Assembly (NCBI RefSeq): GCF_000010325.1
Contig: NC_009662.1
Location: 516,501-580,500 of the forward strand
Direction of reading: 5' to 3'
DNA: 64,000 bases
From: Nitratiruptor sp. SB155-2
Lineage (GTDB): Bacteria; Campylobacterota; Campylobacteria; Campylobacterales; Nitratiruptoraceae
Shown: one piece after another, positions 4,229-64,000 of the stretch
Layout of the letters: each line of letters begins with the position of its first letter
How positions within the stretch are numbered: position 1 is the first letter of the stretch
Notes under the pieces: model-generated
Database searches by the model: none
Told to the model about the DNA's origin: nothing
What the model saw: only the letters and a program-made list of their open reading frames with translations
Translations under genes and position numbers: made by a program

Positions 4229-5593
4229 TTAAAATTTGTAGTTGACGATAAAACGATATTCGTCCCAGCCAAGATCGCTGCCATCTGCTTTTGCGAGAAA
4301 TTTTCTTGGGAAATTGCCACGGAAACGTAGTTGCAGATTTTTTACGGCTTCTGGATAGTAGATAAAATCAAATCCAGCTTCTGTTGCAGTCCAGCTGTGT
4401 GCATAATCAGCTGAGTCAGTTGCCAAAGAGTTATTTTGACCCACATCGAAAGAGGTGTAAAAAAAAGCAGTTTTGAGATTGAGACCATAGTCACTCCACT
4501 TATATGCAGCTGCAACTTTCCAGGCATCCGTATCGGCAAAGAATTGGTGGCGTGTCACCATGCCTTGTGTGAATGCCGGCATACCTCCCCATGGTGTAAT
4601 CACCCCTCCATTGACAGCAGCATTTGTATTTGAATTTGTAGTGGAGTAGGCTGCATAGGCTGTGAAATAGTGGTAACTACCACCAATTTTGGCTCCAAAG
4701 TAGTTACTCTCCACTTCTCCCGCCAACTTATTGCCCACATCTTTTTCATTGATATACTGCAGTGCTGCAAATGGTTTGATCTCGTCGCTAATGAGACAGT
4801 TCCACTTGAAATCTGCCTGTAGATAAACAGCATTTAAAATATCGTGTGCATAGTAGTCCCAGACCTGCAAGCTAAGATTTTTGATTCCTTTATAGATAAT
4901 TGCTACTGTTGTAACACCATCTGTATCTTGTCCAATGGCATATTGCCCCATATCCAGAAAATGTCCCACAATGCCTGTTTGAGTAGGATTGAGATATCCT
5001 GCACCATATCCTGCAGTTAAAGCCAAAGCTGGAAGTGGAAGACGATATTGGTTGTAAAATGTTCCGGGAGCAACTTTCGTTATATGTGCTGCTACGAGGG
5101 TAGTGGATGGTAAATCGGTGTTGGTAAGCACATAGGCTTCAAAAAGAGTCGGAATTGTTCTTGCATCGTCAGCTGCTGCGAGAGGAGTATCGAGTCTTTG
5201 GCGTCCAGCTTTGAATGTAGTATTGCCTCTTTTATATTTAATGTAGGCTTTTCCTACAAAAGCGTAATCTTCTCCCTTGTCACCGAGCAATGAGGTGTTG
5301 AGTTTACCGCTTGAAAATGAAGGGTTTAATCCAAAGTCGCTTACACTATAGAGAGCGGCACCAAGACTTATGCCCTTGAAAGAAGCTGTCTCATAGTGCA
5401 GATCTAGACCTGCTGCAAAAGCGTCTATATCTTTTTTGGAAATACTTCCTTGCCAATGCCTATCTATATATATAAGACGTATATGGCCTTTGAAATTGCC
5501 ATTTGTGAAAGCCTCTTGCAGAGTTGGAACTTCACTGGCATAGCTAAGAGTAAGTAGCGAGCTTGCAGCAAATGAAAGTGCGATTTTTTTCAT
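4229..5593 (-). CDS. outer-membrane porin, OprD-like
   Basis: This 454-residue protein has a cleavable signal peptide (MKKIALSFAASSLLTLSYA, then S-E) and many alternating beta-strand-like segments, ending in an aromatic residue (VNYKF), as outer-membrane barrels do. Length and pattern resemble the OprD/outer-membrane porin family of Campylobacterota. It lies 68 bases after the response-regulator gene and immediately before DUF4212/actP, so it probably admits the solute carried by that symporter. A direct repeat upstream suggests control by the adjacent response regulator. Confidence 0.8.
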   Translation of the reverse strand: MKKIALSFAASSLLTLSYASEVPTLQEAFTNGNFKGHIRLIYIDRHWQGSISKKDIDAFAAGLDLHYETASFKGISLGAALYSVSDFGLNPSFSSGKLNTSLLGDKGEDYAFVGKAYIKYKRGNTTFKAGRQRLDTPLAAADDARTIPTLFEAYVLTNTDLPSTTLVAAHITKVAPGTFYNQYRLPLPALALTAGYGAGYLNPTQTGIVGHFLDMGQYAIGQDTDGVTTVAIIYKGIKNLSLQVWDYYAHDILNAVYLQADFKWNCLISDEIKPFAALQYINEKDVGNKLAGEVESNYFGAKIGGSYHYFTAYAAYSTTNSNTNAAVNGGVITPWGGMPAFTQGMVTRHQFFADTDAWKVAAAYKWSDYGLNLKTAFFYTSFDVGQNNSLATDSADYAHSWTATEAGFDFIYYPEAVKNLQLRFRGNFPRKFLAKADGSDLGWDEYRFIVNYKF

Positions 5594-5618
5594 TTAGACT
5601 CCTTGAGAAATAGTTCAG

Positions 5619-5660
5619 ACTATATTCTAGGGAGCAAACGTAGCATGAATGTAGCAAAAA
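5619..5660 (-). promoter_or_regulatory. candidate response-regulator site and promoter before the porin
   Basis: On the minus strand TGCTAC occurs twice exactly 11 bases apart (+ strand TAGCA at 5641-5645 and 5652-5656), followed by a possible -10 box TATAGT at 5624-5619. Direct repeats with 10-11-base spacing in the -35 area are the usual layout for OmpR-family activators. The adjacent gene encodes such a regulator, but binding is inferred. Confidence 0.5.
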
Positions 5661-5661
5661 A

Positions 5662-6306
5662 CTATTTATCTATCTTATATCCAACACCGCGAATGTTTTG
5701 TATAAAATCTTCACACAAAAGCTTTTTTAGGCGAGAAATTTCTGCGCGTATCGTGGGATTATCCACAAACTCTTCTGTATATACATACTCGCGAAACATA
5801 TCATAATCGACTACGATACCTCTATTTTTTGCTAAGAGTTCGATGATTTGCTGTTGTCTTTTGGTAAGTGTTACTGGAGTATTATTGAAATAGAGGGTTT
5901 TTTGCTCAAAAGAGTAGCTGTAGCTTTTTGAAAGAACTACATGGGATTTATCTTGAATGGCAAGCTTTTCTATGCGAAGCTCTAGTTCTTTAAGATGAAA
6001 GGGCTTTTTGATGTAGTCTTTGCATCCAAGTTCAAAACCTTTTGTGATATCTTCAATATCTGTGAGGGAAGAGATGAAAATAACTGGAGTGTAGCGTTTA
6101 TGCTCTTTTAAAAGCTCCATCAAAGTAAATCCATCGATATTGGGAACATTGATATCGAGGATGAGCAGATCAAAGGAGCTTTGTTGTATGAGCTCAAATG
6201 CCTGCTCCCCATCATATGCAGTTGTGACCTGATGGCCGATCTTTTCAAGGTAACGTTCTATCGAATCGCACAAAATTATCTCATCTTCCATCAAAAGTAT
6301 TTTCAT
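5662..6306 (-). CDS. OmpR-family response regulator
   Basis: This 214-residue protein has a receiver domain (acidic pair Glu8/Asp9, phospho-acceptor Asp51 in LILDINVPN, conserved Lys in YIKKPF) and a C-terminal winged-helix DNA-binding domain. I chose the ATG at 6306 rather than the TTG at 6318 because GGAAGAG lies just before it and it overlaps the kinase stop as ATGA. It forms a pair with the upstream kinase, and the porin gene just downstream carries a candidate binding site. Confidence 0.92.
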   Translation of the reverse strand: MKILLMEDEIILCDSIERYLEKIGHQVTTAYDGEQAFELIQQSSFDLLILDINVPNIDGFTLMELLKEHKRYTPVIFISSLTDIEDITKGFELGCKDYIKKPFHLKELELRIEKLAIQDKSHVVLSKSYSYSFEQKTLYFNNTPVTLTKRQQQIIELLAKNRGIVVDYDMFREYVYTEEFVDNPTIRAEISRLKKLLCEDFIQNIRGVGYKIDK

Positions 6307-60214: not shown

Positions 60215-60250
60215 ATGATAAAATTGTACTCCATTCAAATGGAGAAAAAT

Positions 60251-60541
60251 ATGGATAAAAATGAAATTCTCTCTTATCTAAAAAAACATAAAAATGAATT
60301 AAAAAAGAAATACAAAATATCACAAATCGTTCTTTTTGGCTCCTATGCAAAAGAGAAAGCAAATAAACAAAGCGATATTGATATTGCTGTAAAAACTCCT
60401 ATTAGTGATTATTTCAAACTTTATGAATTGAAAGAAGAATTAGAAAAAGCTTTTCAGGCTTCTGTAGATATTGTGAGGATTAGAGATCACATGAATCATA
60501 GCCTTAAAAAACATATTTTTAAAGATGGTATTAATGTATGA
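60251..60541 (+). CDS. mntA: MNT-domain antitoxin (nucleotidyltransferase)
   Basis: This 96-residue protein has the minimal-nucleotidyltransferase motif GSYAKEKANKQSDIDI (Gly30, Ser31, Asp42, Asp44). In HepT-MntA pairs it neutralises the toxin by adding AMP to a tyrosine. I chose ATG 60251, with GGAGAAAA before it. It overlaps the HEPN gene by eight bases. Base composition is more AT-rich than that of the molybdoenzyme genes, which suggests separate acquisition. Confidence 0.88.
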   Translation: MDKNEILSYLKKHKNELKKKYKISQIVLFGSYAKEKANKQSDIDIAVKTPISDYFKLYELKEELEKAFQASVDIVRIRDHMNHSLKKHIFKDGINV

Positions 60542-60914
60542 TAGAAATCTTGTGGTAGAGATAATAGAACAGATTATTGATGCTGTAAAAACTATTCAAA
60601 AAAGATGCAATTTTGCAAAATCATATGAAGATTTTATCCATAGCGAAGAGGGACAAGAAAAATTAGATAGTATCTGTATGAAGTTTATAGCAATAGGTGA
60701 AAGTTTAAAAAAGATAGATAAAATAACACATAAAAGCCTTTTAGAACAATATCCTCAAGTTGAATGGAAAAAAGTAAAGGGAATACGGGATTTTATTTCG
60801 CATCACTATTTTGATTTAGATGCAGAAGTAATTTATGATATTTGTCAAAATCATCTAAATACTCTTCTTATTACTCTTTTCAAGATAAAAAGGGATTTAG
60901 AGTCAAATTATTAA
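60534..60914 (+). CDS. hepT: HepT-family HEPN toxin (RNase)
   Basis: This 126-residue helical protein of the DUF86/HEPN family has R-x4-H-x-Y as RDFISHHY (Arg85, His90, Tyr92), the RNase active site and, in the studied Shewanella pair, the tyrosine that MntA modifies. ATG 60534 gives an 8-base overlap with the antitoxin gene; ATG 60525 is an alternative start. The pair lies between the molybdoenzyme operon and its likely maturation genes. Confidence 0.88.
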   Translation: MYDRNLVVEIIEQIIDAVKTIQKRCNFAKSYEDFIHSEEGQEKLDSICMKFIAIGESLKKIDKITHKSLLEQYPQVEWKKVKGIRDFISHHYFDLDAEVIYDICQNHLNTLLITLFKIKRDLESNY

Positions 60915-61977: not shown

Positions 61978-63035
61978 ATCTCAATCCGGCAAGTTGCGTT
62001 CGTTACTATTCAAAATTCAGTACATGCGATAGATGTGAAGCAATCTGCCCGGCTGATGCTATTGAAACGAAAGAGGCGGGAGTTGCGATTTATCAAGATA
62101 AATGTATAGAGTGTGGAGGCTGCGTTGGTGTATGTCCGACAGAGGCACTGAGTTTGAGTGATTTTAGTGTAACCAATTTCTTTTTCGAGTTTTTAAATCA
62201 AGAAGAGAGTGTTATTAGCTGCAAAACGAACTTTGTCTGCTTGGCTGCACTCGGTACGGAGTATATGATTGCTTTGGGGCTTGTAAAGGATATCGTTCTC
62301 GATATCGGGCATTGCAAAGAGTGTGAACTCCAGGAAAAATGCTTTCCGGCTATCGAAGATATGGTTAGCGAAGCCAATTACGTGCTGCAAACGATTGGTG
62401 GCAAAGAGATCAAAGCCGAACTACTCGCAAAAATCAAAGAGAATGAACCAAACAGAAGAGAATTTTTCAATCTTTTTTCTTTGAAAAAAGTGGCCCAAGC
62501 CAAAAGTGAGTTTGAATCAAAACTGGATTCCTTGGATAATCCAGAGATCGCTCTTGATGCGGCAGGAGCCAAAGCGATCAAGGAAAAAAGCATTCCCAAC
62601 AAAAGGAAACTTCTTTTTACACTTTTGAAAAAGATGGGAAAACCACACGAATATAAGATGCTTGAAAACAGATATCTAAGTTTTACATCGGATAAAACAA
62701 TTGATGAATCATGCGATAACTGTTCTATATGTTATCGAATCTGTCCTACCGAGGCTCTGAGTACAACCAGAAAAATGGATGCGATTCTTTTTGATCCACT
62801 GCTATGTGTTCGATGTCATCTATGTCATGATGTATGCGAAAAGAAGAGTATTCAGCTTGCCGAAACGTTCGATACAAAAGAGTTTTTTGAGCCTTCTCAG
62901 AAAATCTTGGCAAGATTCAATGTGGTTCGATGTATCGACTGTGGCAATTTCTTTACCTATACAGGGGGTGAACAGGTTTGTCCACGATGTAAAGTGGAAG
63001 AGGAAGAGGCAAAAAGTTTATGGGGGATAGGATGA
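61971..63035 (+). CDS. polyferredoxin-like 4Fe-4S protein
   Basis: This 354-residue cytoplasmic protein has a two-cluster N-terminal ferredoxin domain (CDRCEAICPADAI and CIECGGCVGVCPTEA), a central cysteine set (CKECELQEKC), a second ferredoxin domain at 245-300 (CDNCSICYRICP and CVRCHLCHDVCEKK), and a C-terminal zinc-ribbon-like CIDCG / CPRC. Similar proteins follow TorD-like genes in formate dehydrogenase clusters of this phylum and may carry electrons during enzyme maturation or turnover. It is coupled to both neighbours. Confidence 0.82.
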   Translation: MLNLNPASCVRYYSKFSTCDRCEAICPADAIETKEAGVAIYQDKCIECGGCVGVCPTEALSLSDFSVTNFFFEFLNQEESVISCKTNFVCLAALGTEYMIALGLVKDIVLDIGHCKECELQEKCFPAIEDMVSEANYVLQTIGGKEIKAELLAKIKENEPNRREFFNLFSLKKVAQAKSEFESKLDSLDNPEIALDAAGAKAIKEKSIPNKRKLLFTLLKKMGKPHEYKMLENRYLSFTSDKTIDESCDNCSICYRICPTEALSTTRKMDAILFDPLLCVRCHLCHDVCEKKSIQLAETFDTKEFFEPSQKILARFNVVRCIDCGNFFTYTGGEQVCPRCKVEEEEAKSLWGIG

Positions 63036-63394
63036 ATCCAGCAGATATTCATGGGAAAAAACTGATAGCCGTAGCAGGTACGGATGTATTTGGAAAACAG
63101 TTTATTTCGGTTGTCAATAAAGAGATTGCATCGAAAAATCTTTTTATGATAGGCATAAATATCAATGAAGAGGATTTTGGTTTTTTTATACACAACCTGA
63201 AAGACTCGAAGGTGGAAGTGACTATTTTTATGCCAGAATTTCAGAAAAAGTCGGCTGATTTTTTTGGACTCGATGGATATTTGATAATGAGTTACAAAGA
63301 GGGTGACGCATTCAAGTTTGTTACAGCACCTAATGAAACGTTGATAGACGATCAAAAACTATTTGAACTATCACAAAATATCGGTACTAACTAA
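63032..63394 (+). CDS. hypothetical protein behind the polyferredoxin
   Basis: I do not recognise this 120-residue soluble protein. ATG 63032 overlaps the ferredoxin stop as ATGA and follows a GGGGGATAGG site. The mix of beta strands and charged helices (LIAVAGTDVFGKQFISVVNKEI, then VEVTIFMPEFQKKSADFFG) gives no functional clue. Its stop codon and last codons lie inside the left arm of the inverted repeat, so the C-terminus may have been altered by insertion of that element. Confidence 0.65.
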   Translation: MNPADIHGKKLIAVAGTDVFGKQFISVVNKEIASKNLFMIGININEEDFGFFIHNLKDSKVEVTIFMPEFQKKSADFFGLDGYLIMSYKEGDAFKFVTAPNETLIDDQKLFELSQNIGTN

Positions 63395-63540
63395 ATACAC
63401 TCAACAAGAGTGTAAATTTTTAACGCTACAAAAAAGCTAAAAAGTGCAAACAGCTACGGCTGCCCTACGGGTAGAGTGCACTTTTTTTAACGCTTTTTCT
63501 TTGCTAAAATTTACAACTGTTTCGCTTTATTTAGTTAGTA
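63385..63540. mobile_element. MITE-like 156-bp imperfect inverted repeat
   Basis: Perfect 13-base ends (TACTAACTAAATA and its complement) enclose further matching blocks (TGTAAATTTT, AAAAAGC and TAAAAAGTGCA on the left, with counterparts on the right). The terminal loop has two small hairpins (CAGC-TACG-GCTG and CCC-TAC-GGG). The 8-base sequence AAAATATC flanks it at 63375-63382 and 63542-63549, like a target-site duplication. There is no open frame in it. An alternative is a large regulatory hairpin between two genes of one operon. Confidence 0.55.
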
Positions 63541-63567
63541 TAAAATATCAAAGGCAAGGAAAAGAAT

Positions 63568-64000
63568 ATGGATTTCAATCTAGATGATTTGAGAAAAGAG
63601 TTTGATGCCCTGAAGGCTGCAAAAGATTTCAAAGAGGAAGAGGCGTGCGAAATAGGGTGTGAACCTGCTGAAGAGGTGGAAGGGTTTATTGAAACAGTTC
63701 AAAAATATATGCTTGCACCTGTCAACTGTGGCGTCTACTATAGCAGACTCGATATTAAGATTATCGGGCTGATGATCGAGGAAGATGTACAGGTTCGAGA
63801 GCGAAAAAGAATGATCCGAGATATTCTTCGCTCGATTACTTCCAAAGAGGCTTTGGCAAATCTATTTGAGGTGATTGAAAAGGTAGGACAGGAGAAGGTC
63901 GATATTTACGATCAGCTAAGCCAGGCATTTCCGAATTCCAAGCCTATTTTTGATAACAAAAAGGCAAAGTTTCAAGAATTCAAAAAAGTTTTGGCAAAAA
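63568..64000 (+). CDS. unknown protein of the molybdoenzyme/ferredoxin cluster (runs off the window)
   Basis: This reading frame from ATG 63568 (AAGGAAAAGA upstream) runs to the window end; 144 residues are visible. It is a charged, helical, apparently soluble protein, beginning MDFNLDDLRKEFDALKAAKD, with two cysteines in CEIGCEP and another in APVNCGVYY. I do not recognise a family. It is probably part of the same unit as the TorD-like and ferredoxin genes, with the inverted repeat in between. Confidence 0.7.
   Translation, partial: MDFNLDDLRKEFDALKAAKDFKEEEACEIGCEPAEEVEGFIETVQKYMLAPVNCGVYYSRLDIKIIGLMIEEDVQVRERKRMIRDILRSITSKEALANLFEVIEKVGQEKVDIYDQLSQAFPNSKPIFDNKKAKFQEFKKVLAK

Follow-up and report, generated by a model that had tools for sequence, protein, structure and literature searches.

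ERIC/IRU, Correia and RUP elements are dispersed intergenic palindromes of about 100-170 bp without genes, and are TA-duplicating elements of other phyla. The element described here, from Nitratiruptor sp. SB155-2, is like them in form but differs in having 8-bp duplications and another partner. Among the Sulfolobus SM MITEs, which have been assigned to mobilising insertion sequences (IS), the 164-bp SM3A was assigned to ISC1058 (PMC3718332); both the hosts and the IS families differ from those considered here. MITEAba12 of Acinetobacter is, like the present element, a small non-coding bacterial element which shares its ends with a transposase-bearing IS, has AT-rich targets and contains stop codons, and its fixed-length duplications, found in 40% of copies, are likewise restricted to a minority of copies here (PMC6382973). 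MITEAba12 is 111-114 bp in length with ISAba12 ends, 9-bp duplications and a co-resident IS (PMC6382973), whereas members of the present family are about 145-160 bp, with IS1-like ends, 8-bp duplications and no such IS in the host genome. In that study ISAba3 is called an IS1 family member, with relatives that have 8-bp duplications and GGTGGTG... ends (PMC6382973). No description of the present MITE family was found in the open-access literature searched.

Sequence and limits of the element

The window, which is the whole 64,000-nucleotide stretch of DNA that was analysed, contains a molybdoenzyme cluster. The genes before the element are an NrfD-type subunit, a large molybdopterin oxidoreductase, a TorD/nitrate-reductase-delta-type chaperone and a ferredoxin-type gene. 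The element lies between a genus-conserved 124-aa ORF (63020-63394, forward strand) and a 156-aa ORF on the same strand (63568-64000) that continues beyond the window end. Neither ORF had a Pfam match, and the two are adjacent in 17 relatives. At 60215-60914 in the same cluster, adjacent ORFs of 108 and 129 aa look by eye like a toxin-antitoxin pair of the MNT-HEPN kind, with a nucleotidyltransferase and a HEPN protein.

The flanking 8-bp duplication sets the limits of the element at 63383-63541 on the forward strand, giving a complete, near-palindromic MITE of 159 bp that is non-coding, with no ORF of its own. The original prediction had placed a 156-bp inverted repeat at 63385-63540; the palindrome stands, and its limits have moved outwards by two bases at the left end and one base at the right end. 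The two copies of the duplication, AAAATATC, at 63375-63382 and 63542-63549 (forward strand), abut these limits exactly with no gap. The left terminal inverted repeat (63383-63397, forward strand) is GGTACTAACTAAATA, with the family form GGYACTGACTAAAT, and the right repeat (63528-63541, reverse strand) is the reverse complement of TATTTAGTTAGTAT. Within these repeats, TACTAACTAAATA (63385-63397) and TATTTAGTTAGTA (63528-63540) are exact reverse complements and form perfect inverted ends of 13 bp, inside which there are more paired arm blocks. The tip of the palindrome (63444-63481, forward strand) carries a GTGCA/TGCAC stem and two mini-hairpins. The predicted 13-base ends, paired blocks and 8-base direct repeats are thus all present in the sequence. 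Complementarity of one half of the element to the other scored 22.5, compared with -2.6 +/- 3.9 for 1000 shuffles (maximum 10.5), and the fold of the element strand has an energy of -45.5 kcal/mol, shuffles averaging -30.8 (z -4.0) and none of 200 being as strong.

A TAA within the left end (63392-63394, forward strand) is the present stop codon of the upstream ORF, as had been predicted. The last three codons of this ORF are derived from the element, which adds GTN and the stop in place of a native end that was about as long; the proposed replacement of the original C-terminus was therefore real but minor. The ACTGACTAAAT of the element end contains both TGA and TAA, and the stop of the adjacent gene lies inside the element in 18 of 48 copies. 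Since the ends carry stop codons, no special mechanism is needed to explain the takeover at the upstream ORF. The start codon and ribosome-binding site of the downstream ORF are both outside the element.

Copies, empty sites and insertion history

The genome of the host (G000) was searched as one contig of 1,877,931 bp, and about ten loci were found, including two deletion derivatives of 91 bp and 79 bp. Copies in this genome had 92, 77, 75 and 73% identity to the window element, and further ones, the deletion derivatives among them, were detected by a covariance model, which also found related copies in 14 of the 41 genomes searched. When one genome per species was scanned for the pattern, the family was found, with confirmation by the model, in metagenome-assembled genomes (MAGs) of Nautiliaceae and Nautiliales and in one Campylobacterales MAG. 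The copies thus span several related families of bacteria. None of the chance pattern matches in other phyla or in IMG/VR was scored by the model, and no relatives were found in the phage and plasmid collections searched. At the 48 MITE loci (L001-L209), no copy was located within a gene.

The element was missing from the window junction in all 17 orthologous junctions examined. In G005 the ortholog has the sequence ACACAAAATATAAAAGGGTAG ahead of the next start, where the target (AAAATATA) occurs once and the stop is native, and the G001 ortholog has ATCAAAACAATTGTAAGG; the ancestral site therefore had a single target copy with a native stop nearby. The copies of ends and body elsewhere in this genome and in relatives, together with empty sites that have a single target copy and a different upstream C-terminus, bear out the MITE-like insertion originally proposed. 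The window element is short and non-coding, with terminal inverted repeats, an 8-bp duplication, dispersed copies and empty sites, all of which are features of a MITE.

Insertion has also distinguished close relatives at other sites. Copies at 1601787 and 53346 in the host genome, with duplications TCCTTTTT and TCTTTAAA, are absent in G001, and one G001 copy is represented in the host genome by a 25-bp scar only. A 79-bp core-deleted derivative is common to the two genomes (G000:C1:28645-28723 and G001:C1:24910-24988) with 1-2 differences within the element, and being nearly identical must predate their split. Behind one gene end the element is found in opposite orientations in the two genomes (G000:C1:54389-54544 and G001:C1:46752-46897), the result of either arm-to-arm inversion or independent insertion.

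Other palindromes were observed at the gene junction of the window element. In G016 a palindrome of a cousin family, about 174 bp long and with ends CTCTGAAAAATTAC, is located there (L150, G016:C1:1420778-1420954) and is missing from the same junction in the sister genome G020 (L148), while in G018 (L146) the junction has a third palindrome type (TTATTGGTTATTAGTTATTGG...). A repeat similar to this third type is present at L171 15286-15362 in G000, at the place where G001 has a MITE, and L002 is flanked by AGGAATTAGGAAT-type repeats.

Terminal repeats and the probable IS1-like partner

Canonical ends for the family, GGYACTGACTAAAT...ATTTAGTCAGTRCC, were defined from fresh Nautiliaceae copies. 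With these ends, 8-bp duplications were found at fixed positions in 10 of 46 copies, six of them exact and four at 7/8, compared with 0.6% at 7/8 or better for mispaired (cross-paired) flanks (P about 3e-13). Exact duplications were found at L185/L195, L203, L204, L198 and L200, and that of the window, AAAATATC, is exact given a one-base shift. When the offsets were left free, the signal was weak, 8 of 34 reaching at least 7/8 compared with 7%; it became decisive once the boundaries were set by the canonical ends. No duplication can be recognised in many of the older copies, and ends other than canonical were found on copies L050 and L052 and on L199b, which has CAGGGCTGTTTCA.

A search with the ends identified a 715-bp element in G033 whose own ends, GGCACTGACTAAAT and ATTTAGTCAGTGTC, are those of the MITE, and in which two frames overlap at an A8C run. 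A protein search identified six intact 684-bp copies of a related element in G036, with ends GGCACTGACCTAAAA and two frames overlapping at A9. All six have an exact 8-bp duplication; there are five distinct sequences, as two tandem copies share one. The end variants TAAAT and CTAAAA of the G033 and G036 elements are the two variants found on the MITEs. The overlap of two frames at an A-run fits the IS1-family layout, and frameshifting is predicted. Profile scores of the transposase were E 8e-8 for NF033558 and E 4e-4 for PF03400, both under the curated cut-offs. Its tblastn relatives annotated as IS1 family are 27-31% identical, and the best plasmid-borne relatives are 27-35% identical, several of them annotated as IS1 family. 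The partner is thus like the IS1 family in its short two-frame transposase, A-run overlap, GG-initial ends and 8-bp duplication, but differs in its 684-715 bp length, in scoring below the curated IS1 cut-offs and in the low identity of its transposase to the best plasmid-borne relatives; the enzyme resembles a distant IS1-type transposase. The G033 copy has TEG where G036 has TDG, possibly a catalytic change.

Among the element-bearing genomes searched, the IS and the MITE are co-resident in G033 and G036 only, so it is in these genomes, and not in that of the host, that the MITE shares its ends with a transposase-encoding element. The original prediction noted no transposase nearby and a need for mobilisation in trans, and this now holds more strongly, as no relative of the cognate transposase was detectable in the whole host genome; the window copy is therefore an orphan MITE. 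Transposase remnants occur in two congeners, decayed in G004 and as a fragment in G015, and end-pattern searches of G016/G018 and G000/G001/G003 revealed no transposase between ends. The MITE bodies have only about 14-16 bp of end in common with the IS, which makes them type II MITEs by the usual definition. Judged from the ends alone, the mobiliser of the copies in Nitratiruptor would be an IS1-like transposase. We conclude that the window element is very probably an orphan type II MITE with IS1-like ends, pasted between two genes of the molybdoenzyme cluster by an IS1-like transposase.

It is quite unlikely that a different, unseen transposase moved the MITE and that the likeness to IS1-like ends is convergence. 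The shortness of the shared ends (about 14-16 bp) would allow this, as would the other ends on L050, L052, L199b (CAGGGCTGTTTCA) and a 174-bp cousin family (..CTCTGAAAAATTAC), but convergence would have to account for two end variants that match two IS variants and for a duplication of the same length, 8 bp. IS6 transposases also produce 8-bp duplications, and IS6 ends are GGCACTG-like. The IS6 family was considered as mobiliser on account of these ends and rejected: no IS6 transposase was found in the element-bearing genomes of Nitratiruptor, and G033 gave one weak match.

Orientation, covariation and the shared core

In 38 of 45 copies the left end of the element follows the 3' end of a same-strand gene (P 3e-6, or P 2.5e-5 with four orthologous copies removed), a count made from automatic ORF calls on MITE copies only. 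In 32 copies, 92% of cells in the arms were paired and 13 of 19 pairs had changed on both sides, well above shuffled and slid controls, with no shuffle reaching this level. Such covariation could be produced by selection on structure, by co-evolution of the ends with a transposase or by template-switch correction of palindromes. Counting against the orphan-MITE reading, the strong orientation bias and the arm covariation reveal constraints that would not be expected of a purely inert insertion.

Part of the core of the window family is shared with the 174-bp cousin family (ends ..CTCTGAAAAATTAC), of which G016, G018 and G012 have many copies, and with L199b, despite its CAGGGCTGTTTCA ends. In the Nautiliaceae MAG of L199, a copy at 4576-4817 has an extra insertion in the core, and at 5510-5667 a core with the unrelated ends CAGGGCTGTTTCA is flanked by the duplication CATAGCAT. 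Given the orientation bias, the arm covariation and a core shared with other ends, the body may have a role of its own. We offer tentatively, and consider on balance unlikely, the reading that the body is the lasting unit, a conserved, structured core acting as a portable terminator of transcription or 3'-end module and carried by several unrelated sets of transposon ends (GGYACTGAC, CTCTGAAAAATTAC and CAGGGCTGTTTCA), with selection keeping the core behind genes in one orientation.

The same orientation and covariation, together with the strong fold, could be taken to favour an attenuator, riboswitch or terminator, a structured RNA fixed at this place to control the downstream gene; a large RNA structure controlling that gene had been put forward as the alternative to a MITE. 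We regard this as very unlikely. The structure is absent from the same junction in 17 of 17 orthologs, its copies adjoin different genes and have target-site duplications, and an Rfam search of the region gave chance-level matches only and no family; the covariation itself would also follow from shared transposon ends or from template-switch correction. A fixed RNA had been expected to occupy the same place in all relatives with no copies elsewhere, and the element does neither, so that a fixed RNA is refuted as an ancestral regulator of the downstream gene. An element of the REP/BIME kind, mobilised by a Y1 (RAYT) transposase, would likewise be palindromic, intergenic and repeated, but is scarcely conceivable because Y1 enzymes are not known to duplicate their target and 8-bp duplications were found, and a chance palindrome is ruled out by the copies and empty sites. 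Integron attC and casposon readings were dropped by inspection only, their features being lacking.

Proposed insertion mechanism and significance

For the orphan MITE, an IS1-like transposase would have bound to ends of the form GGYACTGAC... and inserted the element between the two genes, at an AT-rich target of 8 bp that was duplicated in the process; the ends, duplication and empty sites all record such an event. The upstream gene would then have taken the stop codon built into the element end, a takeover seen in the present ORF, leaving its old stop free to decay. Later loss of the transposase from the lineage would probably have left the window copy immobile. If expression of the downstream gene is affected at all, the effect would not exceed that of a hairpin acting as a spacer.

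The element is ordinary in kind; its identity as a MITE is well supported, and a likely partner has been found. It documents a palindromic MITE family of Nitratiruptor and the Nautiliales with a probable IS1-like mobiliser, reveals insertion history between close relatives, and shows how a transposon end can supply the stop codon of a gene. The family is also a candidate system for studying why palindromic MITEs retain their pairing, and why they lie behind genes in one orientation.
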